Below, one piece after another: positions 10,617 through 59,043 of a stretch of 64,000 nucleotides of DNA. Origin of the DNA: Chaetoceros tenuissimus (Eukaryota; Bacillariophyta; Thalassiosirophyceae; Chaetocerotales; Chaetocerotaceae); NCBI GenBank assembly GCA_021927905.1, contig BLLK01000075.1:248001-312000 (forward strand), given 5' to 3'. Position numbers and translations under genes: made by a program. A model generated the notes under the pieces. The model did not search any database. It saw only the letters and a program-made list of their open reading frames with translations, and had not been told where the DNA came from. Numbering within the stretch: the first letter of the stretch is position 1; each line of letters begins with the position of its first letter.

Positions 10617-10857
10617 GATTTCTACGTCGTGGTCGTCCGAGGACTTTTGCTGGTTGCTTGAAAATTGCGGACGAGTTGTTGCTTTTGCGATCTTTCCTAG
10701 ATTAGTGGTATTTACCAAAGCTATCTTCACAAGAGTCAACACGTTGAGAGAGAGCAATAGCTGCTTCTACTAAGGTGCATCGAAGATACCAGAATTGTTG
10801 TGACATTTTTCCTTTAGTATTTCGCTCATTAGATGGTTCGCCCTTGGTTCATGTTAA

Positions 10858-11874: not shown

Positions 11875-11878
11875 TTAA

Positions 11879-12479: not shown

Positions 12480-13589
12480 CTAAGCAACGTTTTTTGAATC
12501 TCCTAAATTGCTTCCACTCATACTTTGATCTGCTGCTTTATCATGTGTGGTATTATTCTGATCAATATTTGGATAGGAAGCTCTTTTATCTATTCTGAAT
12601 GCTGATTGTCCATATGGTAGTCCATATGGCATGAAGACATGAGGAGTCATTCTTCTACTAGTATATGAACCATTCATAGAGAAAGGCGTTCCCATCGCAG
12701 CAGGCACTGTATGTGGATGAACAAAAGATGCATTGCTGGTAGTATTACAGGAAGAAGGCCAGTAATATACTGGAGTATACATATATCCTCCGACGCCCGA
12801 AATCTCGGCGACGCTACCATTGGTGGGAGTTGGCGAGGAAGAGTTTGAGGCCATGGCTGTCTGATGGTTCACATGATCAATAAAAGTAGGAGACACTATG
12901 CGAGGATGGGTATACTTTGTTTGTGAATGCTGAACCGCTGCGAAACTAGAACAATGAACAGGTGTCATTGCATATTCTAGTCTGCGACGTGCACTTTCTT
13001 TCTGGTTTCTTTGTTTGTCAAACATTTGAAGACAAAGATGTGGCTGATCTCTGATGAATAAATCATGATAAAAGGTACCAGAATCTGGACCCCTTTTGAC
13101 TCTACGAAAACCCCATCTGTTGAGTTTACTGATAAAGGAAGATATGTGCTTGTTCACCCTTTCTGCAAGTTTATTTGGCTTTAGGATCTTGAAAGATTTT
13201 CCATGAGGGAGCCATGTGATCACATCGGAAATGCTAGCATCAGAGAGAATCTGCATCAATTGCTGAGGAAATGTTTTACTTGCTTGATGAGTAGTAGCTG
13301 TGATCTCCTCTTCAGTATCTGGAGGCGAAGGCTCACGAGGACCATGTCTTGATACACTGGAAATAAGAGGGGTCTTTATAGTAGGAGCTTGAAGAACTGC
13401 TGAGGCTTTGGTGACAGGGATACTAGGTCCATTCAGAGCAGTGCTTACATAGCTCGGAGTAGGCATTTTTTCCACGGCACTATTTGGAGCTGAGACCTCG
13501 TCGATAACCACATTTGTATTACTACTAGTAGGGAGAGGTCGTCCACTGGGAGCGATGTGTATATAGTTCTGAGGAGTCTGATGATTCAT
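12480..13589 (-). CDS. Heat-shock-factor family transcription factor (array copy 2)
   Basis: 369 residues from an ATG at 13589; the longest and most complete of the three. The HSF DNA-binding domain is at about residues 105-197 (FPQQLMQILSDASISDVI, SFKILKPNKL, SFISKLNRWGFRRVKRG, GTFYHDLFIRD). The N-terminus contains two related segments (TPQNYIHIAPSGRP and MPTPSYVSTALNGP), each like the N-terminus of copy 3, suggesting an internal duplication. The C-terminus keeps the Tyr/Pro segment (GGYMYTPVYYWP) and goes on for about 60 residues beyond the end of copy 1. Same strand as copies 1 and 3. Confidence 0.88.
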   Translation of the reverse strand: MNHQTPQNYIHIAPSGRPLPTSSNTNVVIDEVSAPNSAVEKMPTPSYVSTALNGPSIPVTKASAVLQAPTIKTPLISSVSRHGPREPSPPDTEEEITATTHQASKTFPQQLMQILSDASISDVITWLPHGKSFKILKPNKLAERVNKHISSFISKLNRWGFRRVKRGPDSGTFYHDLFIRDQPHLCLQMFDKQRNQKESARRRLEYAMTPVHCSSFAAVQHSQTKYTHPRIVSPTFIDHVNHQTAMASNSSSPTPTNGSVAEISGVGGYMYTPVYYWPSSCNTTSNASFVHPHTVPAAMGTPFSMNGSYTSRRMTPHVFMPYGLPYGQSAFRIDKRASYPNIDQNNTTHDKAADQSMSGSNLGDSKNVA

Positions 13590-13625
13590 TGTTTCACGAC
13601 ACTTTTTGTTTGCTGGCTGGCTGCA

Positions 13626-13733
13626 AGAGTCAACAAGTGAAGATAGAGCAGTGGCTACTTCTACTATTCTTTGTTATGAGGTATGCTATTACCTTATTAT
13701 GGTAGTTTCATTTTTAGTTATGGTTGATGGTTG
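13626..13733. repeat. Conserved upstream block of HSF copy 2
   Basis: Almost the same sequence lies at 15034-15141 upstream of copy 3: GAAGATAGAGCAGTGGCT, then TTTGTTATGAGGTATGC and TTATGGTAGTTTCAT. It was duplicated with the gene and may include the promoter. No clear heat-shock element is seen in it. Confidence 0.6.
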
Positions 13734-13792
13734 TGATGGTGATGGTTGATGATTGCATCTTGCCATCTGCCTTTTATGAACAATGAAATGGT

Positions 13793-13832
13793 TTTCTAAC
13801 CGTTTCGTCGATCATCACAAATTCATTTTTGG
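13793..13832. repeat. Short palindromic repeat, copy 2
   Basis: CAATGAAATGG, TTTTCTAA, CCGTTTCGTCGATC. Same family as the copies at 11907, 15190 and 21409. Confidence 0.6.
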
Positions 13833-14301
13833 AAAGAATTATTCACATTAGAACATACGTGATATGTTCAGTCCATGATATGTACATTAGTATACATTTC
13901 ACGCTCAATGTAAAGCAAAAAGTAAAAGCAATGACTGCTGAAAAAGTGACTCTATGCATTTTGGGCATTGTACCATTGATTTGGAAATAACATCATTTGT
14001 CGTGCCAAAATGCAAAACAAAAAAATTGTATCACATGTAAACAAAATATACAAGCTCATTGCAAATAGTCTACTTATAGAATTACTCTCAAAAGTACATA
14101 TTACCACACAAAATCACAATGTCGTTTCTATCCGCTACTACACAAATTAGCATTTTTGTTCCACAATTGTGTAGCGCGTTGTAGTAATTATTCAGTCCCC
14201 TAACCCCTAGTCCCTACTATAGATTTGAACAGATTTGAGTCCCCATCTCTCAAGCCGTTCATGATTCAATCAATTATTTTCTCCAATGATGGATAAAATA
14301 A

Positions 14302-14940
14302 TCATTCTTTCATGGTAACATGGGAAGGAGGTCTGCAACTTCCTGGAATATACATATATCCTCCGATATTTGGATTGTTAGTGACGCTAGCAGTGATGGG
14401 AGTCGGCGAGGAAAAGTTTGAAACCATTGCTGTCCGATTGTTCATATGATCAGTAAAAGTAGGAGTCACTATGCGAGGATGAGTATACTTTGTTTGTGAA
14501 TTTTGAACCGCTGTTGAACTGGAATAAACAGGGGCATTAGCATCATCTTGTCTGCGACGTGCTTTCTCTCTTTGGGTTCTTCTTTGGTTGACAATTTGAT
14601 GGCAGAGATGTGGTTCATCTCTGATGAATAAAGGATGAAAAAAGGCACCGGCATCTTGACCCTTTCTGACTTGACGAAAGCCCCATAGATTCAGTTTACG
14701 TGTAAAGGAAGAATACTTGCATACTCCGGGATATTTCACTCTTTCTACAAGGTCATCTGGTTCAAGAATCTTGAAAGATTTTCCGTGAGGTAGCCATGTG
14801 ATGACATCGGAAATGCCTGCATCGGAAAGGATCTCCATCAATTGCTGTGGAAATTTTTTAGACGAAGCCTCTTTGATAGCATTGGTATGTCTAGGGAGAG
14901 GTCCATTAGGAGCAATGTGCATATAGTTCGGAGTAGGCAT
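14302..14940 (-). CDS. Heat-shock-factor family protein, C-terminally short (array copy 3)
   Basis: 212 residues from an ATG at 14940. The DNA-binding domain at about 28-122 is complete (FPQQLMEILSDAGISDVI, SFKILEPDDL, SFTRKLNLWGFRQVRKG, GAFFHPLFIRD), with a few extra residues (KYPGVCK) before the recognition region as compared with copy 2. The frame stops just after the GGYMY segment, so about 50-100 residues present in copies 1 and 2 are missing. It could be a DNA-binding-only competitor of its neighbours or a gene in decay. Confidence 0.8.
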   Translation of the reverse strand: MPTPNYMHIAPNGPLPRHTNAIKEASSKKFPQQLMEILSDAGISDVITWLPHGKSFKILEPDDLVERVKYPGVCKYSSFTRKLNLWGFRQVRKGQDAGAFFHPLFIRDEPHLCHQIVNQRRTQREKARRRQDDANAPVYSSSTAVQNSQTKYTHPRIVTPTFTDHMNNRTAMVSNFSSPTPITASVTNNPNIGGYMYIPGSCRPPSHVTMKE

Positions 14941-39502: not shown

Positions 39503-41665
39503 ATGACCGTCTTTTCGAAGTCTTACTCCACTAGAGAGTTTGTTTTTGACAGCAACTCCAACGATATTACCGTCCAGCTTTCCGAGGATGTAGATGATGC
39601 CTTTGACCTTGCTTCCCTAGTGAACGCTCTTCACGAGAACCCAGATCTCGAAATGGGTGAAGCTTGTGTAGCATTTCTGGATGAAATCACCGGCAACATC
39701 TGTTGCTCTCTTGCTCATTTTGTCGACCCGAAGGCTACTCCAGGACCGGAAGCTCTCATTGCAGTAGTCGAAGTCCGGGAGGAGAGGATTGCAGCGAAAG
39801 CTTTGAATCTCAAGAAGAAAGTGGACGCACCTATCTTCATCAAAGATTTCGAAGTAGCTGCCATTACCAAGGTACCCAACAAGGCCGATTTGCTAGCTGA
39901 ACTGATGAAAATGGGCCTTTCAACAAAAGAGGAAAATGGAGTGAGAGCGCCAACTGCTGTTCTCCTCCATCCAAAGATCTTTCAAAACCTTTTGAGCATC
40001 AGAGATTACCCGTTTGAGCCAATGGTATTCCTAGAAAAAGCATTGACCATGTTTGAGGAGGAACAGATCACTGTAGGCCCCACTGGTAGAAGAAGAAACT
40101 CAAATCAAATTCACAAATCTGTGAGAGATGTCCTAGTTTTTGCAGTATATGCTCTACTTCGTAGCAAGAACGGTCTGGACTTCAACATTGGCCTTGTCAC
40201 TTTGGAAGAGCCTAAAGCCAATGAGGCACAGATCAAAAAAATTTTGGAGGCTGCCTTACTTTCTTGCACTGAGGATGACCAAGCGGCATCAGAAGACGAA
40301 GGCGAGATGGAAACCGGGAGAAAGTCCTTTATGGAAGCTTTGGATGAGGCTGAGAAGGAGGATACATTGAACGAATTGTTGGATGATGCAGGCTCCAAAA
40401 GATCTTCCTTTGGCTCTGTCTCTCCCTCTTTGATGGGCAAAGCAAAAAGACAGCAAAGAGACCAAGATGCCAGTGAAGTAACCCTGCAAGCTAGCAAGAT
40501 GCTTTTAGAGGCCACCAAATCTTTGAACACACTCTCAGCAACCTTTCAGGAAGTTTCAGCTGTAAAAGCAATGACTTCGAACTCAACAAAAGGCTTCTTT
40601 GAAAAGGAAGAAAACCTCGGAATCAAAGAACAGTTTCTAATGTTACAAAGTCCAGATGGTATCGTTCCGGCGGAAGTCATTGATCCTGACACTGACTCAT
40701 TTATGAGAAAGCAACCTAACTCTCAGGCGGGTACAATCACAGGTTTCAATAGACACATCAAAGTAGAAATCCCAATGCTGACTTCGCTTAGAAGTTCTCT
40801 TGACACTAGCCCAGGCTTCCATGACAAGCATACTGGGATCTCGATTCTTGCATTCTCAGTTGATGAAGATCAAAGAAGTTCAACCATGTCAAGGAATATG
40901 TACAATATGCCGGATGCCATTGCAGCCCAAGCGTTCACTCATGAGGAACTTCGGGAGCATCTCGTGGACCCAAAGAAAGGAAAGCTGGACCAATCTTTCT
41001 ATTTGGAATTAATTTTCAAGGCTTTCAAGTTTTTCCTAGAGAAAGTTGCCGGTCAGGAAAGCCATTTGACAAAGTCCTTTTCAGACTTTGTTTCCAAGTT
41101 TCAAACAAGGATCGGATCCAACATTCATTTTCTCGTAAAGGAATATGGTATTAATATGCTGCACTCCATTTTGAAAGCAATTCATGGTATGATTGCTCCG
41201 TATGCGACCTCCTGCTTCATGGGGAGCCCAAGAAAATCTGTGCTGCAGTTTGATGATATCATTGATAGACTGGAATCGGGGACTTTCATGAATGTCTATG
41301 GAATGATCCCACTAGCTATGGATACCAAGAGAAAACAGGACAGTCAGAAACAGGACCATCAAAAGGGGAAGAAGAGAAAGAACTCTAACTCTGCACACGA
41401 GGATGGAAAAGCCAGGAAAGTATCCTCCCTTCCTGAGTTGAAGTGGAGCGATTGGAAGAGACTTGCAAACGCCAAGGAGTTGAGGAAGAAAAACCTCACT
41501 GTTCCAGAGATTAGAGGCAAACCGATGTGCCTTCGTATTTACTTTGAAGGAGAGTGCTCCGATGCAAAGTGTTGGGGTTTCAGATGTCATGATTGTGACT
41601 TGAGTGCATCAGAGAAACAAGTTGTGACTGACTTCAAGTCAAAGGCTGCTGCCCAACAAGGTTAG
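39503..41665 (+). CDS. Gag-like protein of the DIRS/PAT element
   Basis: A 720-residue frame from an ATG at 39503, with no similarity to host families that I know. It is Lys/Glu-rich in the second half, and the C-terminus has closely spaced Cys and His (CLRIYFEGECSDAKCW, then CHDC), suggesting a zinc-binding nucleic-acid site. Its place before the reverse transcriptase and the element's layout make it the gag-like structural protein. Fossil element part; no function claimed for the host. Confidence 0.7.
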   Translation: MTVFSKSYSTREFVFDSNSNDITVQLSEDVDDAFDLASLVNALHENPDLEMGEACVAFLDEITGNICCSLAHFVDPKATPGPEALIAVVEVREERIAAKALNLKKKVDAPIFIKDFEVAAITKVPNKADLLAELMKMGLSTKEENGVRAPTAVLLHPKIFQNLLSIRDYPFEPMVFLEKALTMFEEEQITVGPTGRRRNSNQIHKSVRDVLVFAVYALLRSKNGLDFNIGLVTLEEPKANEAQIKKILEAALLSCTEDDQAASEDEGEMETGRKSFMEALDEAEKEDTLNELLDDAGSKRSSFGSVSPSLMGKAKRQQRDQDASEVTLQASKMLLEATKSLNTLSATFQEVSAVKAMTSNSTKGFFEKEENLGIKEQFLMLQSPDGIVPAEVIDPDTDSFMRKQPNSQAGTITGFNRHIKVEIPMLTSLRSSLDTSPGFHDKHTGISILAFSVDEDQRSSTMSRNMYNMPDAIAAQAFTHEELREHLVDPKKGKLDQSFYLELIFKAFKFFLEKVAGQESHLTKSFSDFVSKFQTRIGSNIHFLVKEYGINMLHSILKAIHGMIAPYATSCFMGSPRKSVLQFDDIIDRLESGTFMNVYGMIPLAMDTKRKQDSQKQDHQKGKKRKNSNSAHEDGKARKVSSLPELKWSDWKRLANAKELRKKNLTVPEIRGKPMCLRIYFEGECSDAKCWGFRCHDCDLSASEKQVVTDFKSKAAAQQG

Positions 41666-41713
41666 TAAAAGAGAAAAAGAAAAAGAAAAGAAAAGAAAAA
41701 AAAAAACATCTGT

Positions 41714-44299
41714 ATGAATGAACATCTAATTTTGACTAAATTAAATATGAAATTTACAGATGCAGTTGACGAGTTGAATGAATCTTTCGGCATTATTGGT
41801 AAGTCTTGTGATGCGGAGAATCCAAGAAAGGGAACGAAAGAAAAACAAGAGTCGGAAGAAGCCTTTCCTGAAGATCTTAGCGACGATGAAAGGATGATCA
41901 GGTTAATTGAGAAAGTATTAGCGTCTCCTCCGGAAGAGTTTGTGTTGTCTCCTTTCAAGTTTGAGGATTCTAAAGAAGCCAGGGAGCATAATTCCAAGAT
42001 TTTGGAGAGTTTCAATTACGATTTCAAAAAATGTATGGATGAAATCGACATTTCAGTCATTCATCCAGGAAGTGAATTCCGGGATCCTGATTTATTGGAA
42101 CCAATCTTAAAAGATCATCCCGATTGGCCAGTCTTGAAGGCCATCATGAAGACAGGAGTGGACTTGGGACTAGATAAAGAACTAAAAAGGGACGAAGATA
42201 CTCGGAAGAAGGACTTTGAGGATGCCCTCAAAAAAGGGAACAGTGGGACAATGAGAGATCCCCTAGCAGCTAATACTGTGAAAGAAAATCAAGAGAAGGA
42301 AGTCACTTACAGAAGGGTGATCCCAATAACTCTGGAATGCGCTAGCAAACTCAAGAACGCTTCCATTTGTCCGTTGGGATGCGCGATACAATGGACGATT
42401 GATGAGGAAGGTCGGAAAAAGATAAAAATGAGGACGACCCACAACCTTTCCTTTGAGTGGCTCTCTGGACTCTCAGTGAATTCCATGGTGGAGAAAAAGC
42501 AGTTGGAAGAAATTCTCTATGGTCACTGTTTAATTCGTGTTATTCATATTATGCACAAAATGCGTTTAAAGCATCCGGAAATTGCTATTTTACTTTCGAA
42601 GTTCGATATTGACTCGGCCTTCAGGAGGATGCACAGTCAGCCGGATCAAGCCCCACTCTTTTTAACTGTCCTACATGATGAGGATGGAGATGGTGCGTAC
42701 CTTGATACGAGAATGCCATTTGGAGCAAATCAAGGTCCAGGAAAGTTCGGAAAAATTAGTGAAACTGTAACGGATCTTGCGAATCACCTTATGGTGAATG
42801 AATGTTGGACTCCTGCAAGACTGAAATCCTCATTTTCAAAAGATATTCCGCCAAAGAAAATCTTACCAAAATCAGTAAAATTTGGAAAAGCTATTCCTCT
42901 GTTGGTAGATATAAAGGATCATGACTCATACTGGGACGTATTTGTTGATGATCTCATCAACGTCACATTGGACCAGATGAACCTTGAAGGAAAAGCAAGA
43001 GAAGCAGCTGCGATCGCTTTGGAACTTCTCTTTCGCCCGAATTCAGATAACGAAGAAGTAAAAAGAAACACGATTTTAAGTTTGAAAAAGCTTTTGGCCG
43101 AAGGTGGACAGGAGGAAATTCGTGTGATTCTAGGTTGGCTCATCAATTCTAGGGAATGGAATATTAAAATCCCCCATGAAAAGGCAACACGATGGATGTC
43201 TGATATAGACGAGTTGATTGAGAAAGGATTGCATCGTCAAAAAGTAACGAGGAAAGACATTGAATCAGTACTTGGAAAGGCTAATGAAGCTTCATTCATT
43301 GTAAGAGAACTTAGATTCTTCTTCTCCCGCTTGAGATATCGGTTGAAGATTGCCATAAAATATAGAAGGGCCTTCTTACAACCTGGTGAAATTGAGGACC
43401 TTAGACTCATCAGAAATACCATTGAAATTCTCTCAGAAAAAGGCCGCTCCTTGAATCATGTCAGTATGACCATTCCTAGCTTGTTTCTGAAGCAAGACGC
43501 GAGTACTTCTGTAGGAATAGGTGGTTTCATGGACCTTGGATATGGTTGGAGAATCATTTTTCATCCGGAGATCCTGAAATTTTTTCACATCAACACCTTG
43601 GAGCATATGGCAGGAGTTGCGAATATCTGGATGGCGATAAAATTACTTAATATCAACGGCGACGGAAATGGAATGAAATTCCTAGACCAAAGCGATAATA
43701 TGACGGCAATTGCTTGGATGCTGAGGTCCACTTACTATGAGAAGGAGAATAGACCAGAGGCTATCCTGAGAGAGATCATGGCTAGACACTTAGCGACTCT
43801 TCTTTTTCAATCGGATACTGGCACGTATCTTCAGCATATAAAAGGGATCGATAACATCATTGCTGATATCTTATCAAGAAATAGAAATTTATCTAACAAC
43901 GACATTCACACTTTAATTTCACAGGAAGCAGAAGAGTTTCTCAACAAAACAAACTTCGAACTGAAGATGACGGACGTTCCGGAGGAGATTATCTCTTGGA
44001 TAGAATCTCTCGTGCTGAAAATGATGCATCTGAAGGGGTTACCAAGGGGACAACGGACAAAGATTGTGAATATTTTAGAAAATGGCGGGCTTTCACAACC
44101 CGAGCCGGACTTCCTCTTTTCCTCGATAACATCAGTAGAGAAGAACAGATTAAAATCTGTGGTGCTTTCGCGTACGAAATCAGACATAATCGGTTTGGCA
44201 AGAAGTCACTTAGTAAACTTAAAGGAGATACAGTCGAAACTACCCTCGACTCTGTTTGCAAGACCTTCGTCGCGAATGGGATTCCCAGTCCCCAAGTAG
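41714..44299 (+). CDS. Reverse transcriptase/RNase H of the DIRS/PAT element
   Basis: An 861-residue frame. Reverse-transcriptase landmarks: SKFDIDSAFRRMHSQ, RMPFGANQGPGKF and DVFVDDLINVT (the DD active-site pair). A DIRS-type RNase H region follows (LKQDASTSVGIGG, NTLEHMAGVAN, DQSDNMTAIAW). The 3' end overlaps the recombinase frame by about 300 bp, as is common in this family. Confidence 0.85.
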   Translation: MNEHLILTKLNMKFTDAVDELNESFGIIGKSCDAENPRKGTKEKQESEEAFPEDLSDDERMIRLIEKVLASPPEEFVLSPFKFEDSKEAREHNSKILESFNYDFKKCMDEIDISVIHPGSEFRDPDLLEPILKDHPDWPVLKAIMKTGVDLGLDKELKRDEDTRKKDFEDALKKGNSGTMRDPLAANTVKENQEKEVTYRRVIPITLECASKLKNASICPLGCAIQWTIDEEGRKKIKMRTTHNLSFEWLSGLSVNSMVEKKQLEEILYGHCLIRVIHIMHKMRLKHPEIAILLSKFDIDSAFRRMHSQPDQAPLFLTVLHDEDGDGAYLDTRMPFGANQGPGKFGKISETVTDLANHLMVNECWTPARLKSSFSKDIPPKKILPKSVKFGKAIPLLVDIKDHDSYWDVFVDDLINVTLDQMNLEGKAREAAAIALELLFRPNSDNEEVKRNTILSLKKLLAEGGQEEIRVILGWLINSREWNIKIPHEKATRWMSDIDELIEKGLHRQKVTRKDIESVLGKANEASFIVRELRFFFSRLRYRLKIAIKYRRAFLQPGEIEDLRLIRNTIEILSEKGRSLNHVSMTIPSLFLKQDASTSVGIGGFMDLGYGWRIIFHPEILKFFHINTLEHMAGVANIWMAIKLLNINGDGNGMKFLDQSDNMTAIAWMLRSTYYEKENRPEAILREIMARHLATLLFQSDTGTYLQHIKGIDNIIADILSRNRNLSNNDIHTLISQEAEEFLNKTNFELKMTDVPEEIISWIESLVLKMMHLKGLPRGQRTKIVNILENGGLSQPEPDFLFSSITSVEKNRLKSVVLSRTKSDIIGLARSHLVNLKEIQSKLPSTLFARPSSRMGFPVPK

Positions 44300-45093
44300 G
44301 TGTCAATGGTAAAAAAGGAATTCTAATTGATAGACAGATAAAAGGTTACAAGGACGAAGACGAACCAACGAAAAGGCAACCAGCTCTCCCAGTAAGATTC
44401 TTTTTATTCTTGAGTGGTTTACTTTGTTTCAATGAGAGAGAACGTGTTATAAGAGACTTAATCCTAATTGCATTCTTTTTCTTAATGAGATCATGTGAAT
44501 ATTCCGAAACTCCAAACAAGAAAAACAAAAGAACAAAACTTTTAGAGTTAAGGGATATTACTTTTATAGTAGGTGGTAGAGAAATCCCTTGGAATGGAAA
44601 TATAGACAATGCGAGTGAAGTATTAGTGACTTTCAGAAACCAGAAGAATGGCCAAAAGATGGAAACAATTTCACAATCGAAAACGGACCTTGACTTGTGT
44701 CCCTGCAAAGTGATGATCAGACTAGTTAAAAGACTTCGGAAATATAAGGAAACGAAGGGATCTACTCAGATAAACACTTATTATTTCAAAGGGAAAATAG
44801 GTTTAGTTCGAAATACGGATATTACAAACAAGTTGAAATCCACAGTCCGAACTATGGGAAAGGATGACTTGGGAATTGAATCTCACGAAGTAGGAACACA
44901 CTCTCTCAGAGCTTCTTTCGCTTTGATGATGGCTTTGATGAATATTCCAGATTCAAGGATTATGATCTTAGGTAGATGGAAATCAGAAGCTTTTAAGAAA
45001 TACATTCAACGTCAAATTATAAAGGTTAGGGATACCACTGCATATAAAGCCTTAAGATCTATCACTTCGAACTTCAGAATAAAAATGAGATAA
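43996..45093 (+). CDS. Tyrosine recombinase of the DIRS/PAT element
   Basis: The open frame is about 365 codons; the exact start is unclear because it overlaps the reverse-transcriptase frame and has no early ATG. Tyrosine-recombinase landmarks are present: Arg in FLMRSCEYSE, HSLRASFALM (H-x-L-R), GRWKSEAFKKYIQRQ with the Trp and the nucleophile Tyr. This enzyme would integrate the circular DNA copy. Confidence 0.85.
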   Translation: MDRISRAENDASEGVTKGTTDKDCEYFRKWRAFTTRAGLPLFLDNISREEQIKICGAFAYEIRHNRFGKKSLSKLKGDTVETTLDSVCKTFVANGIPSPQVGVNGKKGILIDRQIKGYKDEDEPTKRQPALPVRFFLFLSGLLCFNERERVIRDLILIAFFFLMRSCEYSETPNKKNKRTKLLELRDITFIVGGREIPWNGNIDNASEVLVTFRNQKNGQKMETISQSKTDLDLCPCKVMIRLVKRLRKYKETKGSTQINTYYFKGKIGLVRNTDITNKLKSTVRTMGKDDLGIESHEVGTHSLRASFALMMALMNIPDSRIMILGRWKSEAFKKYIQRQIIKVRDTTAYKALRSITSNFRIKMR

Positions 45094-46457: not shown

Positions 46458-47249
46458 TCAAATAATAGTCTCTCCCGTCATCTCTCCAATGTATCGTTTT
46501 ATCAACTTGTGTTGGTCTATATCTGCATAAGGATTTGCCTCGAGGTATTGCAAAGGGCTAATGCCAATTGAGTTGGGAACTTTGAAGTTACCAAGACCTT
46601 TGCGTCTGACTATTCCATATACGATATCTTCCATAGGATTATACGATGAGCATGCACGATGCAGTTCAAATTCCTCATTCCTGTTGATGTTTCTAATCCA
46701 ATCATTAGTTTCTTCGAAATAAATATTGCTTTCGTGTGGAGAAGTTTCAAGCAACTTTGTTGACGAAATAACACCTTGTCTCAGTTGAGTTTGTTGCGGT
46801 ACATGGAAGATGATCAACTCTTTACACCATGCAAATGCGTAACTTCCAATCCATCCACAGGATGGTGGAATGTAGATTGAAGTTAGAGATCTACAGCCAT
46901 AGAATGCCTCTTTTCCAATGAATTGCAAGTTTGTCGAAAGTCGAACATATGAGAGTCTCGTGAGACCACCGAAAGCTCTCTTTTCAATCCTTCGAACACT
47001 ATCTGACATAATGACTGTTTCCACTTTCTCACCATCTACAAAAGTCAATTCAGGAATCACTTCCACTCCGGGAAGAACGATGATGACCTCCCAATTTTCT
47101 CTCTCATGATTTAAATCAGCATACATATCATCATAATCTTCCCAAACAGGATTCCATAGTTTCTCTCCGTTGTAAAAGCAAGTCAATTTGCCTTTGTACA
47201 TTCGCACTCCTGGTATGAATCGCCGCCATTCTTCCGTTTGAACCCTCAT
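46458..47249 (-). CDS. BspA-like leucine-rich-repeat protein
   Basis: 263 residues from an ATG at 47249. The N-terminal family block is MRVQTEEWRRFIPGVRMYKG. Residues about 65-165 are LRR_5/BspA-type repeats (VEVIPELTF, VRRIEKRAFGGLTRLSYVRL, LQFIGKEAFYGCRSLTSIYI, IGSYAFAWCKELI). The C-terminus HRACSSYNPMEDIVYGIVRR and NPYADIDQHKLIKRYI is shared with the gene at 58234. No signal peptide or membrane segment. The family is expanded in diatoms, and BspA-type repeats usually bind other proteins; function unknown. Other copies nearby are broken or fused with a hydrolase gene. Confidence 0.82.
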   Translation of the reverse strand: MRVQTEEWRRFIPGVRMYKGKLTCFYNGEKLWNPVWEDYDDMYADLNHERENWEVIIVLPGVEVIPELTFVDGEKVETVIMSDSVRRIEKRAFGGLTRLSYVRLSTNLQFIGKEAFYGCRSLTSIYIPPSCGWIGSYAFAWCKELIIFHVPQQTQLRQGVISSTKLLETSPHESNIYFEETNDWIRNINRNEEFELHRACSSYNPMEDIVYGIVRRKGLGNFKVPNSIGISPLQYLEANPYADIDQHKLIKRYIGEMTGETII

Positions 47250-48862: not shown

Positions 48863-51800
48863 ATGAAAGCATTACGCGTTCTTGCTCTCATCGCAGCGAG
48901 TCTTCTTTCTGCTACGGCTCTTCCACCACCAAAGCCAAAGCCAAATGTAAAGGCTCCAAAGCCAGTTCCGAAGCCAGTTCCGAAGCCACCCGTTCTAAAG
49001 CCATATCATCGAGAGCCAGTTCCAAGGCCAGTTCCAAAGCCAAATGTAAAGGCACCACCACCAAAGTCAAAGCCAAATGTAAAGGCACCACCAGTTCCAA
49101 AGCCAGTTCCGAAGCCACCCGTTCCAAAGCCATATCATCGAGAGCCAGTTCCAAGGCCAGTTCCAAAGCCAAATGTAAAGGCACCACCAGTTCCACAACC
49201 AGTTCCAAAGCCAAATGTAAAAGCACCACCACCAAAGTCGAAGCCAAATACGAACGCAAAGTCACCTAAAGCACCATCATCAAAGCAGAAGCCAACTGCT
49301 AATAAAAGCTTCAAAGATTCTAAGTCAGGCAAATCTAGTTCTACAAAGGGCAGTAAATCTGGAAAGGCAACCTCTGCTCCTACTTTAAGCACCAGTCCTT
49401 CTGTTTCAGCCAATCCTTCAGCGGTCCCTACTACTAGTATGATGCCGACTGTGTCTGATGCGCCAACTACATCGAATAAGAAAGGCAAGTCTAGTAAAAG
49501 CACTAAGTCGGGAAAAGAACCCTCCAAAGGTCCTCCACCATCCAAACTCCCTCCTCCGTCCAAGTTGTGTAAATCTACAAAGTGTACATCTCCGAAGTCT
49601 AATTCATCAAAGAAGTCTTCACCAAAGTCTAATTCTTCGAAGAAGTCTTCACCAAAGTCGAGTTCTCCAAAGAAGTCTTCTTCTCTGAAGTCTAAGTCTA
49701 ATTCATCAAAGAAGTCTTCACCAAAGTCTAATTCTTCGAAGAAGTCTCAACCAAAGTCGAGTTCTCCAAAGAAGTCTTCTTCTCCAAAGTCTAAGTCTAC
49801 TAAAAGCTCAAAGTCAAACAAATCTGATTCCGGAAAAAGCAGTAAATCTGGAAAGGCAACCTCTGCTCCTACTTTAAGTACCAGTCCTTCTGTTTCAGTC
49901 AATCCTTCAGTAGACCCAACTACTAGTATGATGCCGACTGTGTCTGATGCGCCAACTACATCGAATAAGAAAGGCAAGTCTAGTAAAAGCACTAAGTCGG
50001 GAAAAGAACCCTCCAAGGGTCCTCCACCATCCAAACTCCCTCCTCCGTCCAAGTTGTGTAAATCTACAAAGTGTACATCTCCGAAGTCTAATTCATCAAA
50101 GAAGTCTTCACCAAAGTCTAATTCTTCGAAGAAGTCTCAACCAAAGTCGAGTTCTCCAAAGAAGTCTTCTTCTCCAAAGTCTAAGTCTACTAAAAGCTCA
50201 AAGTCAAACAAATCTGATTCCGGAAAAAGCAGTAAATCTGGAAAGGCAACCTCTGCTCCTACTTTAAGTACCAGTCCTTCTGTTTCAGTCAATCCTTCAG
50301 TAGACCCAACTACTAGTATGATGCCGACTGTGTCTGATGCGCCAACTACATCGAATAAGAAAGGCAAGTCTAGTAAAAGCACTAAGTCGGGAAAAGAACC
50401 CTCCAAGGGTCCTCCACCATCCAAACTCCCTCCTCCGTCCAAGTTGTGTAAATCTACAAAGTGTACATCTCCGAAGTCTAATTCATCAAAGAAGTCTTCA
50501 CCAAAGTCTAATTCTTCGAAGAAGTCTACTTCTCTGAAGTCAAGTTCTTCGAAGAAGTCTTCTTCACCAAAGTCTAATTCTTCGAAGAAGTCTTCACCAA
50601 AGTCGAGTTCTCCAAAGAAGTCTTCTTCTCTGAAGTCTAAGTCTAATTCATCAAAGAAGTCTTCACCAAAGTCTAATTCTTCGAAGAAGTCTTCACCAAA
50701 GTCGAGTTCTCCAAAGAAGTCTTCTTCTCTGAAGTCTAAGTCTAATTCATCAAAGAAGTCTTCACCAAATTCTAATTCTTCGAAGAAGTCTCAACCAAAG
50801 TCGAGTTCTCCAAAGAAGTCTTCTTCTCCAAAGTCTAAGTCTACTAAAAGCTCAAAGTCAAACAAATCTGATTCCGGAAAAAGCAGTAAATCTGGAAAGG
50901 CAACCTCTGCTCCTACTTTAAGTACCAGTCCTTCTGTTTCAGTCAATCCTTCAGTAGACCCAACTACTAGTATGATGCCGACTGTGTCTGATGCGCCAAC
51001 TACATCGAATAAGAAAGGCAAGTCTAGTAAAAGCACTAAGTCGGGAAAAGAACCCTCCAAAGGTCCTCCACCATCCAAACTCCCTCCTCCGTCCAAGTTG
51101 TGTAAATCTACAAAGTGTACATCTCCGAAGTCTAATTCTAATTCATCAAAGAAGTCTTCACCAAAGTCTAATTCTTCGAAGAAGTCTTCACCAAAGTCGA
51201 GTTCTCCAAAGAAGTCTTCTTCTCTGAAGTCTAAGTCTAATTCATCAAAGAAGTCTTCACCAAAGTCTAATTCTTCGAAGAAGTCTCAACCAAAGTCGAG
51301 TTCTCCAAAGAAGTCTTCTTCTCCAAAGTCTAAGTCTACTAAAAGCTCAAAGTCAAACAAATCTGATTCCGGAAAAAGCAGTAAATCTGGAAAGGCAACC
51401 TCTGCTCCTACTTTAAGTACCAGTCCTTCTGTTTCAGTCAATCCTTCAGTAGACCCAACTACTAGTATGATGCCGACTGTGTCTGATGCGCCAACTACAT
51501 CGAACAAGAAAGGAAAGTCCACTAAAAGCTCAAAGTCAAACAAATCTGGTTCCGGAAAAGGCAATAAATCTGGAAAGGCAACATCTTCTCCTACTGTTAC
51601 ATCTTCTCCTTCTCTTACTACAAGTCCTTCAGCGATCCCTACTACTAGTATGATGCCGACTGTGTCTGATGCGCCAACTACATCGAACAAGAAAGGCAAG
51701 TCCAGTAAAAGCTCCAAAAGTATTACGAGTCCGTCGAAAGGGAAACAAATCAAAAGCCCAAAAGGAAGTGATATGGTTCCTACTGGTTCTTCCAAAAGCT

Positions 51801-52906
51801 CTGAAGGAAGTGATAAGGTTGATTCTGGTAGTAAAGGTTCTAAGTCAGGAAAAGAACCATCTAAAGGTCCTAGTTGCGAATCTGTTAGATGCACAGTACC
51901 CAAATTAGCTCCAAATTTTTGTCAGAAGGGAGAAAGACCGAGAACTATTAAGGAAAAAGGTACATGTTGTACTATATATAGCTTTGAATGTGTACCTGTG
52001 TCTGAAGCGCCAACTACTTCGAACAAGAAAGGCAAGTCTAATAAAAGCAAAAACTCGGGAAAAGAACCTTCCAAAGGTCCTCCACCATCCAAACTCCCTC
52101 CTCCGTCAAAGCTGTGTAAATCTACCAAGTGTACATCTCCACCAACGATTGCACCAACGCCTGCTCCAACAAGACTGATACTGCCTGCTCCGTCCGCATC
52201 AAAGCTTCCAAAAGTTCCAAATTGCAAACTCATCACATGTAAAATGCTTGTGCCCCCACCCCAAGGGTTTTGTGAAAAGGGAGAAACTTTAAAGCGTATT
52301 ATAGAAGATGGTAAATGCTGTCCTAGCTATAAATGCATAACAGAGAAGCCTTCTTTCTCTTCTTCAAAGAAGTCCTCCTCTCCGAAGAAATCTCCAAAGA
52401 AGCCTTCACCAAAGTCTCAACAAAAGTCGAGTTCTCCAAAGAAGTCTTCTTCTACGAAGTCTAATTCTCAAAAGAAAGCTTCTTCACCGAAGGGTAAGCC
52501 TACTTCTCCAAAGAACAAGCCATCTACTCCTTCTTCAAAGCCTTTACCTCCAATTGCCACATCAAAGGGACACAATATTTTCGATCATGAAACTTTTGAC
52601 AAGCTATGTGTAGAAGCCAGATCTTACAAGTTCAGACTTCAGAACGGAAACATGAGAAGATGTTCCTACATCACCAAAAGGGATACCAAGGCTCGCCAAG
52701 ACATGTATTGCAAGGGTGAGACTGCTAAAGAATGTTGCAAAGCTTGTAAAGTCAAAAAGTGCGAAGATAAGAGCGATTTCAAATTCCAACTCAAGAATGG
52801 TAAATCAACCACTTGTTCATGGTTTAAGAAGGGCAAATCAGGCAGAAGAAAGGCAATGTACTGTCACGGAAAGGTGAAGAGAAAGTGTTGTGAGGCATGT
52901 GCGTAA
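48863..52906 (+). CDS. Silaffin-like secreted Ser/Lys/Pro-rich protein with Cys-rich C-terminus
   Basis: 1,347 residues from an ATG at 48863. A signal peptide (ALRVLALIAASLLSATA) leads to a Pro/Lys/Val repeat (PKPVPKPNVKAPPP). Five long repeats follow (near 49350, 49840, 50225, 50870 and 51375), each with a Ser/Thr/Pro segment (ATSAPTLSTSPSVS), a KxxK cluster (KGKSSKSTKSGKEPSKG), a Pro stretch with CKSTKC, and many SSKKSSPKS units. Two VWC-like Cys domains lie at about 1005-1046 and 1121-1160 (each ending in CC and a last Cys). The C-terminus (1249-1347) is two copies of a diatom module ending YC...CCxAC. Known: silaffins are secreted, Ser-phosphorylated, polyamine-modified and carry spaced-Lys clusters that direct them to silica. 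A biosilica role is inferred from this likeness only. Confidence 0.75.
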   Translation: MKALRVLALIAASLLSATALPPPKPKPNVKAPKPVPKPVPKPPVLKPYHREPVPRPVPKPNVKAPPPKSKPNVKAPPVPKPVPKPPVPKPYHREPVPRPVPKPNVKAPPVPQPVPKPNVKAPPPKSKPNTNAKSPKAPSSKQKPTANKSFKDSKSGKSSSTKGSKSGKATSAPTLSTSPSVSANPSAVPTTSMMPTVSDAPTTSNKKGKSSKSTKSGKEPSKGPPPSKLPPPSKLCKSTKCTSPKSNSSKKSSPKSNSSKKSSPKSSSPKKSSSLKSKSNSSKKSSPKSNSSKKSQPKSSSPKKSSSPKSKSTKSSKSNKSDSGKSSKSGKATSAPTLSTSPSVSVNPSVDPTTSMMPTVSDAPTTSNKKGKSSKSTKSGKEPSKGPPPSKLPPPSKLCKSTKCTSPKSNSSKKSSPKSNSSKKSQPKSSSPKKSSSPKSKSTKSSKSNKSDSGKSSKSGKATSAPTLSTSPSVSVNPSVDPTTSMMPTVSDAPTTSNKKGKSSKSTKSGKEPSKGPPPSKLPPPSKLCKSTKCTSPKSNSSKKSSPKSNSSKKSTSLKSSSSKKSSSPKSNSSKKSSPKSSSPKKSSSLKSKSNSSKKSSPKSNSSKKSSPKSSSPKKSSSLKSKSNSSKKSSPNSNSSKKSQPKSSSPKKSSSPKSKSTKSSKSNKSDSGKSSKSGKATSAPTLSTSPSVSVNPSVDPTTSMMPTVSDAPTTSNKKGKSSKSTKSGKEPSKGPPPSKLPPPSKLCKSTKCTSPKSNSNSSKKSSPKSNSSKKSSPKSSSPKKSSSLKSKSNSSKKSSPKSNSSKKSQPKSSSPKKSSSPKSKSTKSSKSNKSDSGKSSKSGKATSAPTLSTSPSVSVNPSVDPTTSMMPTVSDAPTTSNKKGKSTKSSKSNKSGSGKGNKSGKATSSPTVTSSPSLTTSPSAIPTTSMMPTVSDAPTTSNKKGKSSKSSKSITSPSKGKQIKSPKGSDMVPTGSSKSSEGSDKVDSGSKGSKSGKEPSKGPSCESVRCTVPKLAPNFCQKGERPRTIKEKGTCCTIYSFECVPVSEAPTTSNKKGKSNKSKNSGKEPSKGPPPSKLPPPSKLCKSTKCTSPPTIAPTPAPTRLILPAPSASKLPKVPNCKLITCKMLVPPPQGFCEKGETLKRIIEDGKCCPSYKCITEKPSFSSSKKSSSPKKSPKKPSPKSQQKSSSPKKSSSTKSNSQKKASSPKGKPTSPKNKPSTPSSKPLPPIATSKGHNIFDHETFDKLCVEARSYKFRLQNGNMRRCSYITKRDTKARQDMYCKGETAKECCKACKVKKCEDKSDFKFQLKNGKSTTCSWFKKGKSGRRKAMYCHGKVKRKCCEACA

Positions 52907-53008
52907 AAGACAAGCGATTATGAAGAAAAAAGAAAAATACTTACATGTTAAAAATCAAAGAAGCAATTTATATGTATATACCTTACTTCTTGTATCTGAT
53001 GTAACGCA

Positions 53009-56000
53009 ACTACATCGAATAAGAAAGGCAAGTCTAGTAAAAGCACTAAGTCGGGAAAAGAACCCTCCAAAGGTCCTCCACCATCCAAACTCCCTCCTCC
53101 GTCCAAGTTGTGTAAATCTACAAAGTGTACATCTCCGAAGTCTAATTCACCAAAGTCTAATTCTCCAAAGAAGTCTTCTTCTCTGAAGTCTAATTCATCA
53201 AAGAAGTCTTCACCAAATTCTAATTCTTCGAAGAAGTCTTCACCAAAGTCGAGTTCTCCAAAGAAGTCTTCTTCTCTGAAGTCTAAGTCTACTAAAAGCT
53301 CAAAGTCAAACAAATCTGATTCCGGAAAAAGCAGTAAATCTGGAAAGGCAACCTCTGCTCCTACTTTAAGTACCAGTCCTTCTGTTTCAGTCAATCCTTC
53401 AGTAGACCCAACTACTAGTATGATGCCGACTGTGTCTGATGCGCCAACTACATCGAATAAGAAAGGCAAGTCTAGTAAAAGCACTAAGTCGGGAAAAGAA
53501 CCCTCCAAAGGTCCTCCACCATCCAAACTCCCTCCTCCGTCCAAGTTGTGTAAATCTACAAAGTGTACATCTCCGAAGTCTAATTCTAATTCATCAAAGA
53601 AGTCTTCACCAAAGTCTAATTCTTCGAAGAAGTCTTCACCAAAGTCGAGTTCTCCAAAGAAGTCTTCTTCTCTGAAGTCTAAGTCTAATTCATCAAAGAA
53701 GTCTTCACCAAAGTCTAATTCTTCGAAGAAGTCTCAACCAAAGTCGAGTTCTCCAAAGAAGTCTTCTTCACCAAAGTCTAAGTCTACTAAAAGCTCAAAG
53801 TCAAACAAATCTGATTCCGGAAAAAGCAGTAAATCTGGAAAGGCAACCTCTGCTCCTACTTTAAGTACCAGTCCTTCTGTTTCAGTCAATCCTTCAGTAG
53901 ACCCAACTACTAGTATGATGCCGACTGTGTCTGATGCGCCAACTACATCGAATAAGAAAGGCAAGAAAAGCACTGTCGGGAAAAGAACCTCCAAGGGTCC
54001 TCCTCCACCATCCAAACTCCCTCCTCCGTCCAAGTTGCAAATCTACAAAGTGTACACTCGAAGTCTAATTCTCAAAGAAGTCTTCAACAAAGTCTAATTT
54101 CGAAGAAGTCTACTTCTCTGAAGTCAAGTTCTTCGAAGAAGTCTTCTTCACCAAAGTCTAATTCTTCGAAGAAGTCTTCACCAAAGTCGAGTTCTCCAAA
54201 GAAGTCTTCTTCTCTGAAGTCTAAGTCTAATTCATCAAAGAAGTCTTCACCAAAGTCTAATTCTTCGAAGAAGTCTTCACCAAAGTCGAGTTCTCCAAAG
54301 AAGTCTTCTTCTCTGAAGTCTAAGTCTAATTCATCAAAGAAGTCTTCACCAAATTCTAATTCTTCGAAGAAGTCTCAACCAAAGTCGAGTTCTCCAAAGA
54401 AGTCTTCTTCTCCAAAGTCTAAGTCTACTAAAAGCTCAAAGTCAAACAAATCTGATTCCGGAAAAAGCAGTAAATCTGGAAAGGCAACCTCTGCTCCTAC
54501 TTTAAGTACCAGTCCTTCTGTTTCAGTCAATCCTTCAGTAGACCCAACTACTAGTATGATGCCGACTGTGTCTGATGCGCCAACTACATCGAATAAGAAA
54601 GGCAAGTCTAGTAAAAGCACTAAGTCGGGAAAAGAACCCTCCAAAGGTCCTCCACCATCCAAACTCCCTCCTCCGTCCAAGTTGTGTAAATCTACAAAGT
54701 GTACATCTCCGAAGTCTAATTCTAATTCATCAAAGAAGTCTTCACCAAAGTCTAATTCTTCGAAGAAGTCTTCACCAAAGTCGAGTTCTCCAAAGAAGTC
54801 TTCTTCTCTGAAGTCTAAGTCTAATTCATCAAAGAAGTCTTCACCAAAGTCTAATTCTTCGAAGAAGTCTCAACCAAAGTCGAGTTCTCCAAAGAAGTCT
54901 TCTTCTCCAAAGTCTAAGTCTACTAAAAGCTCAAAGTCAAACAAATCTGATTCCGGAAAAAGCAGTAAATCTGGAAAGGCAACCTCTGCTCCTACTTTAA
55001 GTACCAGTCCTTCTGTTTCAGTCAATCCTTCAGTAGACCCAACTACTAGTATGATGCCGACTGTGTCTGATGCGCCAACTACATCGAACAAGAAAGGAAA
55101 GTCCACTAAAAGCTCAAAGTCAAACAAATCTGGTTCCGGAAAAGGCAATAAATCTGGAAAGGCAACATCTTCTCCTACTGTTACATCTTCTCCTTCTCTT
55201 ACTACAAGTCCTTCAGCGATCCCTACTACTAGTATGATGCCGACTGTGTCTGATGCGCCAACTACATCGAACAAGAAAGGCAAGTCCAGTAAAAGCTCCA
55301 AAAGTATTACGAGTCCGTCGAAAGGGAAACAAATCAAAAGCCCAAAAGGAAGTGATATGGTTCCTACTGGTTCTTCCAAAAGCTCTGAAGGAAGTGATAA
55401 GGTTGATTCTGGTAGTAAAGGTTCTAAGTCAGGAAAAGAACCATCTAAAGGTCCTAGTTGCGAATCTGTTAGATGCACAGTACCCAAATTAGCTCCAAAT
55501 TTTTGTCAGAAGGGAGAAAGACCGAGAACTATTAAGGAAAAAGGTACATGTTGTACTATATATAGCTTTGAATGTGTACCTGTGTCTGAAGCGCCAACTA
55601 CTTCGAACAAGAAAGGCAAGTCTAATAAAAGCAAAAACTCGGGAAAAGAACCTTCCAAAGGTCCTCCACCATCCAAACTCCCTCCTCCGTCAAAGCTGTG
55701 TAAATCTACCAAGTGTACATCTCCACCAACGATTGCACCAACGCCTGCTCCAACAAGACTGATACTGCCTGCTCCGTCCGCATCAAAGCTTCCAAAAGTT
55801 CCAAATTGCAAACTCATCACATGTAAAATGCTTGTGCCCCCACCCCAAGGGTTTTGTGAAAAGGGAGAAACTTTAAAGCGTATTATAGAAGATGGTAAAT
55901 GCTGTCCTAGCTATAAATGCATAACAGAGAAGCCTTCTTTCTCTTCTTCAAAGAAGTCCTCCTCTCCGAAGAAATCTCCAAAGAAGCCTTCACCAAAGTC

Positions 56001-56490
56001 TCAACAAAAGTCGAGTTCTCCAAAGAAGTCTTCTTCTACGAAGTCTAATTCTCAAAAGAAAGCTTCTTCACCGAAGGGTAAGCCTACTTCTCCAAAGAAC
56101 AAGCCATCTACTCCTTCTTCAAAGCCTTTACCTCCAATTGCCACATCAAAGGGACACAATATTTTCGATCATGAAACTTTTGACAAGCTATGTGTAGAAG
56201 CCAGATCTTACAAGTTCAGACTTGAGAACGGAAACATGAGAAGATGTTCCTACATCACCAAAAGGGATACCAAGGCTCGCCAAGACATGTATTGCAAGGG
56301 TGAGACTGCTAAAGAATGTTGCAAAGCTTGTAAAGTCAAAAAGTGCGAAGATAAGAGCGATTTCAAATTCCAACTCAAGAATGGTAAATCAACCACTTGT
56401 TCATGGTTTAAGAAGGGCAAATCAGGCAGAAGAAAGGCAATGTACTGTCACGGAAAGGTGAAGAGAAAGTGTTGTGAGGCATGTGCGTAA
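53009..56490 (+). pseudogene. 5'-truncated tandem copy of the silaffin-like gene
   Basis: Copy 1's 3' flank (52907-53008) runs directly into the middle of a repeat unit at 53009, so this copy has no signal peptide or start. The order of repeat units then parallels copy 1. Near 53965-54100 several small deletions shift the frame. From 54556 the frame is open again to 56490, and the Cys-rich C-terminus is the same as in copy 1 except for one residue seen (RLQNG versus RLENG). The 3' flank 56491-56592 repeats 52907-53008. It is either a very recent unequal crossover or an assembly artefact in a long repeat. Confidence 0.75.
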
Positions 56491-56630: not shown

Positions 56631-56717
56631 GCGTTTAAGAAGGGCAAGTCACACAGAAGAAAGGCAAAGTACTGTAATGCAAAGGTGAAGCGAAAGTGTT
56701 GTGAGGCATGTGCGTGA
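56631..56717 (+). pseudogene. Relic of a third silaffin-like C-terminus
   Basis: 28 codons read AFKKGKSHRRKAKYC and then KVKRKCCEACA before a stop, matching the last residues of the copies ending at 52906 and 56490 with several changes. No further homology upstream, so it is an older remnant. Confidence 0.75.
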
Positions 56718-57224
56718 ACGATGTGAAGCAAGTTGAAGTAAGATAATATATGTAAAGTTATACCTACATTTCTTGACGTGTGATCGGATTCATAGATCGG
56801 ATTCAGAAACATAGATTTTGGATATTGATCAAAATGGATATGTTGTTTCTGAATGTCATTGAAGGAAATAGCTTGTTACCTGCATCATCTACAATTGAAC
56901 GACATTGAAAGAGCGATAATTTGTTGTTACTCCCCGGTATTGCTCATCTATTCTACAACACTTTTGAATTTTTTATTCATGACATTCATAGAGGCATATA
57001 CATCTTTTACAGTGCACGAGCACTGCATTAAATCTTATCTTCAAGAAAGAATAGCATGATTGTTTGTTTTTGGCAGATATCCACATCGCCTTTAAGGATT
57101 TTGTCAAGTAGTACCTCAACCTGAAAGCGACTCAACATTCTCACATTCATCAAAAGCAAAATCAGCTACATTTCCTATGACCCTCTTTCTTCCTCATTGG
57201 AAATGGCTGAGGTATTCTTCATTC
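56718..57224. other. Gene-free stretch
   Basis: About 500 bp after the silaffin relic. No convincing frame or repeat seen. Confidence 0.4.
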
Positions 57225-57345
57225 AGCCACACAATGCATACCCGATGTAGTTCACATTCTTGACCATTATTCAAGTTTTTGATCCATGTATTCACTTCTT
57301 GGTGCATGTCAAAAAATTCCTTCTCTGTCGTGGCTTCAATAACAT
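57225..57345 (-). pseudogene. 3' fragment of a leucine-rich-repeat gene
   Basis: The DNA matches the segment of the gene at 58234 around 58420-58500 (encoding the TWIKN...ELHRAC region), with several differences. It lies directly next to the hydrolase fragment. Confidence 0.55.
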
Positions 57346-57789
57346 CTTGGTGGTTTCAAATACGCCATCCAAACTAGATTCGAAATTCCACTAGTTCCAC
57401 TTGTCATGGTGAGCATCTCTTGAATAGTAATGTTTCTGCGTTCATCTGCACCGGAAACCTCGGTCCATAGTTCTTCTTTTGGAAATACATCTCCAAGAGT
57501 GGTGTCAAGATTGAGAAGACCATCATCTATCAAAATCCCAATCAAGAGTGAAATAATTGATTAGATTGGCTGGAATAGATGCGTCCACATCTTCTCTTGT
57601 ATAGGAAGCTACGACTTTGCCATGTTTAAGCACTAGCACTGTACGAATGTAAGGCTTTTTGCTAATGGATTCAAGCAACGTCTTATGTCCACTAGATTTG
57701 TTGATGTGTTTAACTTCTTTCAAATCTTGAGAAAGATCTAAAAGGTGACCGTTTGCTGATACCTGCGCAATACCGATCTCCCCTCTTCT
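57346..57789 (-). pseudogene. Fragment of the beta-lactamase-like hydrolase gene
   Basis: Nearly identical to 37640-38100: HLLDLSQDLKEVKHINKSS, LVLKHGKVVASY and, further on, TIQEMLTMTSGTSGI. A short deletion after SIPANL removes the SVTK nucleophile motif and shifts the frame. The C-terminal two-thirds of the gene are absent. It lies between two leucine-rich-repeat gene pieces. Confidence 0.8.
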
Positions 57790-57900
57790 TCATCATAGAT
57801 AAGAAAACCTCTCAACTCCGTTGTAAAAGAGAGTCTTCTTGCCTTTGTACATCCTCACTCCAGGAATTAAGCGCCGCCATTCTTCTGTCTGCACTCTCAT
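57790..57900 (-). pseudogene. 5' fragment of a leucine-rich-repeat gene fused to the hydrolase fragment
   Basis: From an ATG at 57900: MRVQTEEWRRLIPGVRMYKG, then KTLFYNGVERFSYL and two TGA codons; the same frame continues as hydrolase. The same junction occurs at 38070-38110, where the first codons are replaced by the hydrolase signal-peptide piece. Confidence 0.8.
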
Positions 57901-58233: not shown

Positions 58234-59043
58234 TCAAACAGGCTCCCCCATCATCTCTGCAATGTATCGCTTTATCAGCTTGTGCTGGTCTATATCTGCG
58301 TACGGATTTGCTGCGAGATATTGTGCAGGAGTAATACCAAGTGCATTGGGAGCTTGAAAAGAACTGAGACCTTTCCGTCTTACTATTCCATAGACGATAT
58401 CCTCAATCGGGTTGAATGAAGAGCAAGCCCGATGCAGTTCATATTCCTCATTCATGTTTATGTTTTTAATCCAGGTATTCACTTCTTCTGCATTATAATC
58501 GTTATCGTGTCCATAAAATGGAGAAGCTTCAAACAGTTTGGTTCTTCTAATAACATCTTTTCCAAGTTCAAATACATTCCTACCAATAAGAGTGTGTTGA
58601 GGAACATGAAAGATGATAAACTCAGAACACCAGTTAAATGCCCAATTACAAATCTCTCGACACGATGGCGGAATGAAAATTGAAGTCAGAGAAACACAAG
58701 ATTGGAATGAATTTACACCAATAAACTCGAGAGTTTGCGAAAGCTTGACAAACTCAAGACTGATACAAGTACTGAAAGCCCCCCATTCAATTCTTCTGAC
58801 AGTATCACTCATGATTACCTTCTCGACATTCTTACAACTCCAGAAAGTCCAATCAGGAATCACTCTAACTCCTGGTAGCACTATAATGACTTTCCACGAA
58901 AGCCTCTCTTCTCGATTGTAGATGAGAGGATTTGTTCCATCTCCTTCCCTAAGTATCTCTCCATTGTAAAATAGAGTCTTCTTTCCTTTGTACATCCTCA
59001 CTCCGGGAATGAACCGCCGCCATTCTTCTGTCTGCACCCTCAT
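58234..59043 (-). CDS. BspA-like leucine-rich-repeat protein, paralogue
   Basis: 269 residues from an ATG at 59043, the same layout as the gene at 46458: MRVQTEEWRRFIPGVRMYKG, then LRR_5 repeats (VRVIPDWTFWSCKNVEKVIM, VRRIEWGAFSTCISLEFVKL, LEFIGVNSFQSCVSLTSIFI, ICNWAFNWCSEFIIF), and the C-terminal block ELHRACSSFNPIEDIVYGIV and ADIDQHKLIKRYIAEM. No signal peptide. It is the intact relative of the fragments at 57225-57900. Confidence 0.82.
   Translation of the reverse strand: MRVQTEEWRRFIPGVRMYKGKKTLFYNGEILREGDGTNPLIYNREERLSWKVIIVLPGVRVIPDWTFWSCKNVEKVIMSDTVRRIEWGAFSTCISLEFVKLSQTLEFIGVNSFQSCVSLTSIFIPPSCREICNWAFNWCSEFIIFHVPQHTLIGRNVFELGKDVIRRTKLFEASPFYGHDNDYNAEEVNTWIKNINMNEEYELHRACSSFNPIEDIVYGIVRRKGLSSFQAPNALGITPAQYLAANPYADIDQHKLIKRYIAEMMGEPV

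Follow-up and report, generated by a model that had tools for sequence, protein, structure and literature searches.

The described proteins that come closest to the gene treated here are the silaffins and silaffin-like proteins (SFLPs) of Thalassiosira pseudonana. The Scheffel screen for them calls for at least 18% Ser and at least 10% Lys per 100 amino acids (aa), together with an endoplasmic reticulum (ER) signal peptide (PMC3478156); repeated KXXK (X = S or G) with 1-6 residues between, and pentalysine clusters, are further silaffin-like features (PMC5501833, PMC9650480). In the sections of these sources drawn on here, PT repeats are reported for some SFLPs (PMC3478156, PMC5501833), a canonical protease cleavage site for all the new KXXK proteins (PMC5501833), and RXL for the precursors of several silica-associated proteins (review PMC4557024). 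The gene in question is an open reading frame (ORF) at positions 48863-52906 (+) of a 64,000-nucleotide stretch of Chaetoceros tenuissimus DNA (the window, C59:248001-312000; C13, C14 and C59 denote contigs). It shares with the silaffins and SFLPs a leader (here signal-peptide-like), the Ser and Lys content, the KXXK motifs and the pentalysine clusters (PMC3478156, PMC5501833); it differs from them in lacking RXL beyond its leader and in having 34 Cys. It is best read, with a probability of roughly 0.55, as coding for a soluble secreted silaffin-like protein of the wall matrix, to which Cys modules would add disulfide or binding functions.

Three other groups of wall proteins invite comparison, again as far as the consulted sections of their descriptions go. 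The cingulins CinW and CinY have KSGKGSSSKGSK-type Lys-enriched regions (PMC9650480) that resemble the KSSKSSKGKGKGKSSKSSKSGK of paralogs of the window gene; cingulin precursors carry RXL (PMC4557024), and those sections of PMC9650480 name neither half-VWC modules nor paired C-terminal Cys modules. The pleuralins are likewise modular: their N-terminal part is rich in Pro, and they have domains that contain Cys (PMC4557024), but by description they are built of 90-aa PSCD repeats, whereas the window gene has Lys/Ser repeats and places its Cys modules C-terminally. The SiMat7-like proteins are a family of T. pseudonana in which cysteines are conserved, and one of them is found in a frustule organic matrix (PMC5501833); they are described as having RXL and a transmembrane segment besides their conserved Cys, which number eight, whereas the window gene has no second strongly hydrophobic segment. 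A literature search by title and abstract opening found the combination of a silaffin-type chain with Cys modules nowhere named, which is not to claim that it is absent from print, and the main text of a C. tenuissimus transcriptome paper (PMC12305248) mentions neither silaffin, frustule nor cell wall.

The frame proposed in the initial annotation is intact: 1347 aa without interruption, where the other two frames of the same strand hold 35 and 113 stops. It opens with a signal-peptide-like leader (residues 1-20; 48863..48922, +), whose hydrophobic core at residues 6-17 has the best 12-residue Kyte-Doolittle mean of the protein, 2.46; means for stretches starting after residue 20 do not exceed 1.28. 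Since no later stretch is as hydrophobic as the leader, a membrane anchor is unlikely. A Pro/Lys-rich segment follows (residues 21-140; 48923..49282, +; 40% Pro, 19% Lys), which is unlike the corresponding region of the paralogs. The high Ser and Lys content that had been noted amounts to 26.7% and 20.6% of the whole protein, with a net charge of +248, and 981 of 1248 spans of 100 aa reach the Scheffel levels of both residues. The window has 52 ATG ORFs that reach 100 aa; the same Ser/Lys test is passed by the gene itself, by two ORFs of the tandem copy, and by no other. A Pfam scan of the whole protein, at E up to 10, matched no family.

Most of the chain is a repeat array (49358..51730, +): four units of 130-218 aa and then shorter ones, visible as DNA repeats, the units beginning at residues 166, 329, 459, 677, 842 and 903. 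The four longer units run SGKATSAPT...PTTSMMPTVSDAPTTSNKKGKSSKSTKSGK and continue in a Ser/Lys/Pro stretch; residues 141-970 as a whole are 36% Ser and 22% Lys. The same type of unit recurs in two paralogs and, in a weaker form, in a third. The KxxKxxK-type spacing described earlier is present: the protein contains 29 KXXK (counted as K[SG][SG]K), with five neighbouring pairs 1-6 residues apart, and 21 pentalysine clusters (five non-adjacent K in 12-14 aa) of 9 distinct sequences; KSSKSTKSGK is an instance of KxxKxxKxxK. How far this exceeds chance was judged against 1000 composition shuffles of residues 21-978, in which 19 clusters were observed against 6.8 +/- 3.5 (maximum 20) and 27 KXXK against 5.4 +/- 2.2 (maximum 13). 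Because the array units are copies of one another, two of five units were also tested singly, and gave p = 0.04 and 0.08 for clusters and p = 0.006 and 0.04 for KXXK. The excess of Lys spacing is thus real but moderate: some clusters are to be expected from composition anyway, and much of the clustering follows from composition together with copied repeats.

The gene belongs to a small family. Three complete paralogs, L054 (C59, about 140 kb), L055 (C13, about 545 kb) and L009 (C59, about 134 kb) (L0xx labels denote genome matches to the C-terminal Cys pair described below), have a similar leader beginning MKALL, MKTLL or MKSLL, Lys/Ser repeats and the C-terminal module, and all come through the Ser/Lys test. 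L054 has in addition three half-VWC or related Cys modules and L055 four, while L009 is without the half-VWC. In the same segment test the three paralogs have 34, 12 and 6 KXXK against shuffle means of 3.4, 1.9 and 0.5; for pentalysine clusters, two have 18 against 3.2 +/- 2.4 (maximum 13) and 9 against 2.4 +/- 2.1 (maximum 12), and the remaining one 8 against 0.3 +/- 0.7 (maximum 5). The assignment of the gene to the silaffin class stands in part. Composition and motifs agree with the published screens, so that the gene is silaffin-like by composition and motif, not an established silaffin; the RXL found in precursors of described silica-associated proteins is confined to the leader.

The C-terminal third ends in two copies of a Cys module, as had been reported: copy A (residues 1249-1295; 52607..52747, +) and copy B (residues 1300-1346; 52760..52900, +) are 38% identical, and their Cys gaps are the same, 17, 15, 7, 0 and 2. 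The pair is preceded by the lead-in NIFDHETF (residues 1238-1245; 52574..52597, +), of which NIFxH is kept in the eight closest matches. In the genome searched (41.03 Mb in 68 contigs) the pair has 116 matches, counted at E up to 10; eight of them, two inside the window, have E below 1e-34, and the others are 24-46% identical, except for an 82% remnant just downstream of the tandem copy. The consensus of this family is about CxDxxSxxFxLxNGxxRxCxWxTK...RxxxYC...CxxTCxxC. It is a large family of the C. tenuissimus genome that Pfam does not recognise: the module of the window gene matched 0 Pfam families, and 26 family members gave scattered weak matches, none of them convincing.

The breadth of this family bears directly on the reading of the gene. 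Module-bearing frames were read for the best 30 of the 116 matches to the Lys-rich query, with the paralogs and the window added, and gave 27 distinct frames. KXXK occurs in 9 of the 27 against 4 of 197 other frames, and pentalysine clusters in 9 of 27 against 10 of 197; this co-occurrence comes from a biased sample, the frames being the best matches of a Lys-rich query with close paralogs included, and is not main evidence. (Of the four control frames that do contain KXXK, one is the tandem copy, one reads across the gene itself in a second frame, and the other two, in L011 and L021, lie upstream of the module.) The 116 matches, and the 18 of 27 frames without KXXK, mean that the C-terminal module by itself would indicate an extracellular protein, not silica. 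Since the module often occurs in proteins that have no Lys clusters, the chief alternative is that the gene codes for a general protein of the extracellular matrix, of mucilage or of chain linkage, secreted but never in silica. Its Ser/Lys/Thr/Pro chain would then be a glycosylated spacer, with binding left to the Cys modules; this is possible, if on the whole unlikely. More distant module members that were read often lie beside Pro/Ser spacers without Lys clusters, the Pfam PT repeat scored in L025 and fell just under its cut-off in L015, and the APT/PTTS segments of the window gene have a mucin-like look. Several further observations favour this alternative or otherwise weigh against a place in silica. 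The only RXL in the gene is RVL at residue 5, inside the leader, and the three paralogs have none; pentalysine clusters are likewise missing from 18 of the 27 module-bearing frames, and in the two units tested singly they exceed composition only marginally; the most Lys-rich stretches are KK pairs (KKSSPKSNSSKKSS), not KXXK; and neighbouring KXXK pairs 1-6 residues apart, of which one paralog has 9, number 0 in two of the three paralogs. What speaks against a matrix or mucilage protein is the charge of the chain: about 21% Lys and +248 are unusual for a mucin. The Lys clusters recur, moreover, in all three paralogs, and KXXK exceeds every whole-segment shuffle in all four genes.

Several other matches to the pair have features of their own. 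In L010, L011, L020 and L021 the module has short stretches rich in Lys, of KGK/KSSK type, close by. L007 (C14:197319-200669) joins the C-terminal pair to other Cys-rich repeats (YDPVKCG...CEYDNQC) and has no KXXK; the repeats look Kazal-like by eye, and Pfam gave no Kazal match. L008, also on C14, is a short frame with part of an L007-type Cys-rich repeat and is without KXXK.

Upstream of the C-terminal pair lie the two domains that had been called VWC-like, at residues 1005-1043 (51875..51991, +) and 1121-1158 (52223..52336, +). That description is borne out in one respect: both have six Cys in the VWC order C-C-C-CC-C. In an alignment of nine copies, two from the window gene and the others from L054 and L055 (seven together), seven columns are invariant: C, C, C, G, C, C and C. 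The match to Pfam VWC (PF00093) is more limited: it is seen in five of the nine, each of them a paralog copy, and covers positions 31-57 (in one case 31-56) of 57, which is the second half of the model only, at 12.0-15.1 bits, under the 27.6 cut-off, and the two copies of the window gene have no match, so that a whole domain scoring above cut-off was not found. They are accordingly called half-VWC-like modules here. A genome-wide VWC search returned no match, but its controls were empty too, and it is no proof of absence; a PDB search with the half-VWC profile gave no hit below E 0.7; and five Pfam families other than VWC are each matched by a single copy, none at better than E 0.088.

Beyond what had been noted before, the gene has five two-Cys stubs, CKSTKC, in addition to its paralogs and a truncated tandem copy. 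Four stubs lie in the array (49568..49585, 50057-50074, 50447-50464 and 51101-51118, all +) and the fifth between the half-VWC-like modules (52115-52132, +). In two paralogs a complete 6-Cys module begins where the fifth stub aligns, which suggests that the array may have grown from a unit containing the beginning of a half-VWC-type module. With 24 Cys in the modules of the C-terminal third and 10 in the stubs, the 34 Cys fall into three kinds of element; the linker between the half-VWC-like modules and the C-terminal pair is again rich in Ser (31%) and Lys (28%).

Small Cys-rich modules are widely used in binding and inhibition, and the repeats, in units of 130-218 aa and within a gene that has a tandem copy, have the look of fast expansion. 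Both points would suit a secreted protein with a different main job, protease-inhibitor-like or a cationic antimicrobial, whose Lys/Ser repeats are an expanding linker. Such a protein is improbable: the Lys/Ser part and the C-terminal module are both kept in all four complete members, and the Pfam scans gave no inhibitor domain.

Attempts to place the C-terminal module in a known fold gave candidates that were not adopted. The ShK fold (PF01549) was matched by one of 26 members at E 0.0096, short of its cut-off; 11 other Pfam families also match weakly, the best of them, at E 0.00063 in 2 of 26, being the unrelated zf_ZIC zinc finger, which weakens the case for ShK. Among the 20 ShK matches listed genome-wide, none is on contig C59. 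ShK domains end in CxxxCxxC, and distant members of the module family end alike; the AlphaFold models differ from ShK in showing strands plus helix, both being of low confidence and too poor to use (mean predicted local distance difference test score, pLDDT, 47.9 for the pair as a single sequence and 59.2 for one module with two further rows from the window). A single-sequence match to ribosomal eS25 (E 0.0037) is probably an effect of Lys-rich composition and was gone when a profile was used; a profile of the 26 members retrieved from the PDB nothing beyond three antibody chains, none better than E 0.33. Relatives outside the genome were sought in phage records, with no match, and in IMG/VR by six exact peptide patterns, with none.

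If the gene codes for a silaffin-like wall-matrix protein, a role in the silica wall is plausible, and its parts can be given tentative tasks. The chain would enter the secretory path and go on to the silica deposition vesicle; there its lysines, once modified, and its serines, once phosphorylated, would bind silica and help its condensation; the half-VWC-like and C-terminal modules, through disulfides or protein contacts, would keep the chain within an organic network that is insoluble; and family members might tune function through the copy number of Lys/Ser units and half-VWC modules. The bolder proposition, to be held as a doubtful one, is that these genes constitute a lineage-specific silica-matrix family in which a silaffin-type Lys/Ser chain has been fused to folded disulfide modules, the half-VWC and a paired Cys module beyond the reach of Pfam. 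One part of such a protein would bind silica and the other would crosslink into an insoluble organic scaffold, so that the family would link the soluble silaffins to the insoluble matrix; at the least it suggests, in a form open to test, how silica-forming chains pass from solution into that matrix. Because silaffins have little recognisable sequence, tracing them from one diatom to another is difficult; through a Cys module that is conserved and alignable, proteins with silaffin-type chains could be sought in further diatom genomes.

The gene is followed directly by its tandem copy (53007..56490, +), which is 5'-truncated, has no leader and is joined at 53007 to the 3' flank of the gene. Against the gene (50593-52985) it shows 1 mismatch in 2393 bases compared, and small indels clustered at about 53960-54110 break its frame. 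Further downstream is the 82% identical remnant of the module's last 28 residues (56631..56714, +; C59:304631-304714). A truncated, frame-broken copy with a module remnant directly downstream, and ORFs on either side of the gene that we take, by eye, to be retrotransposon-like, are what a functionless decaying repeat locus or an assembly artefact might leave. For the gene itself this is very improbable: it is open across 1347 codons, and its last 99 codons, compared with three relatives (two on another contig, one 160 kb away), give a nonsynonymous divergence (dN) of 0.080-0.085 and a synonymous divergence (dS) of 0.226-0.228, dN/dS being about 0.35-0.38. With dN this low relative to dS the C-terminal module is constrained, that is, under purifying selection. 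The frame break in the tandem copy may be a residual sequencing error, since the assembly seems to be a Nanopore/Illumina hybrid: the C. tenuissimus NIES-3715 genome is described, in the part of the report used here, as 41.0 Mb with 38.9% G+C in 85 scaffolds of up to 4.46 Mb, from Illumina and Nanopore reads (PMC8613185). The window has 38.65% G+C.

The surroundings of the gene and its copy were judged by eye. Upstream, at 39503-45093 (+), are ORFs that resemble a retrotransposon, with what we take from its motif to be a tyrosine-recombinase-like protein at 44485-45093. Two related ORFs of leucine-rich-repeat type, at 46458-47249 (-) and 58234-59043 (-), flank the gene together with its tandem copy, and a third, degenerate-looking stretch of this type lies near 57200-57900. 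At 9795-14940 (-) there are three ORFs, related to one another, that resemble DNA-binding proteins of the heat-shock-factor type.

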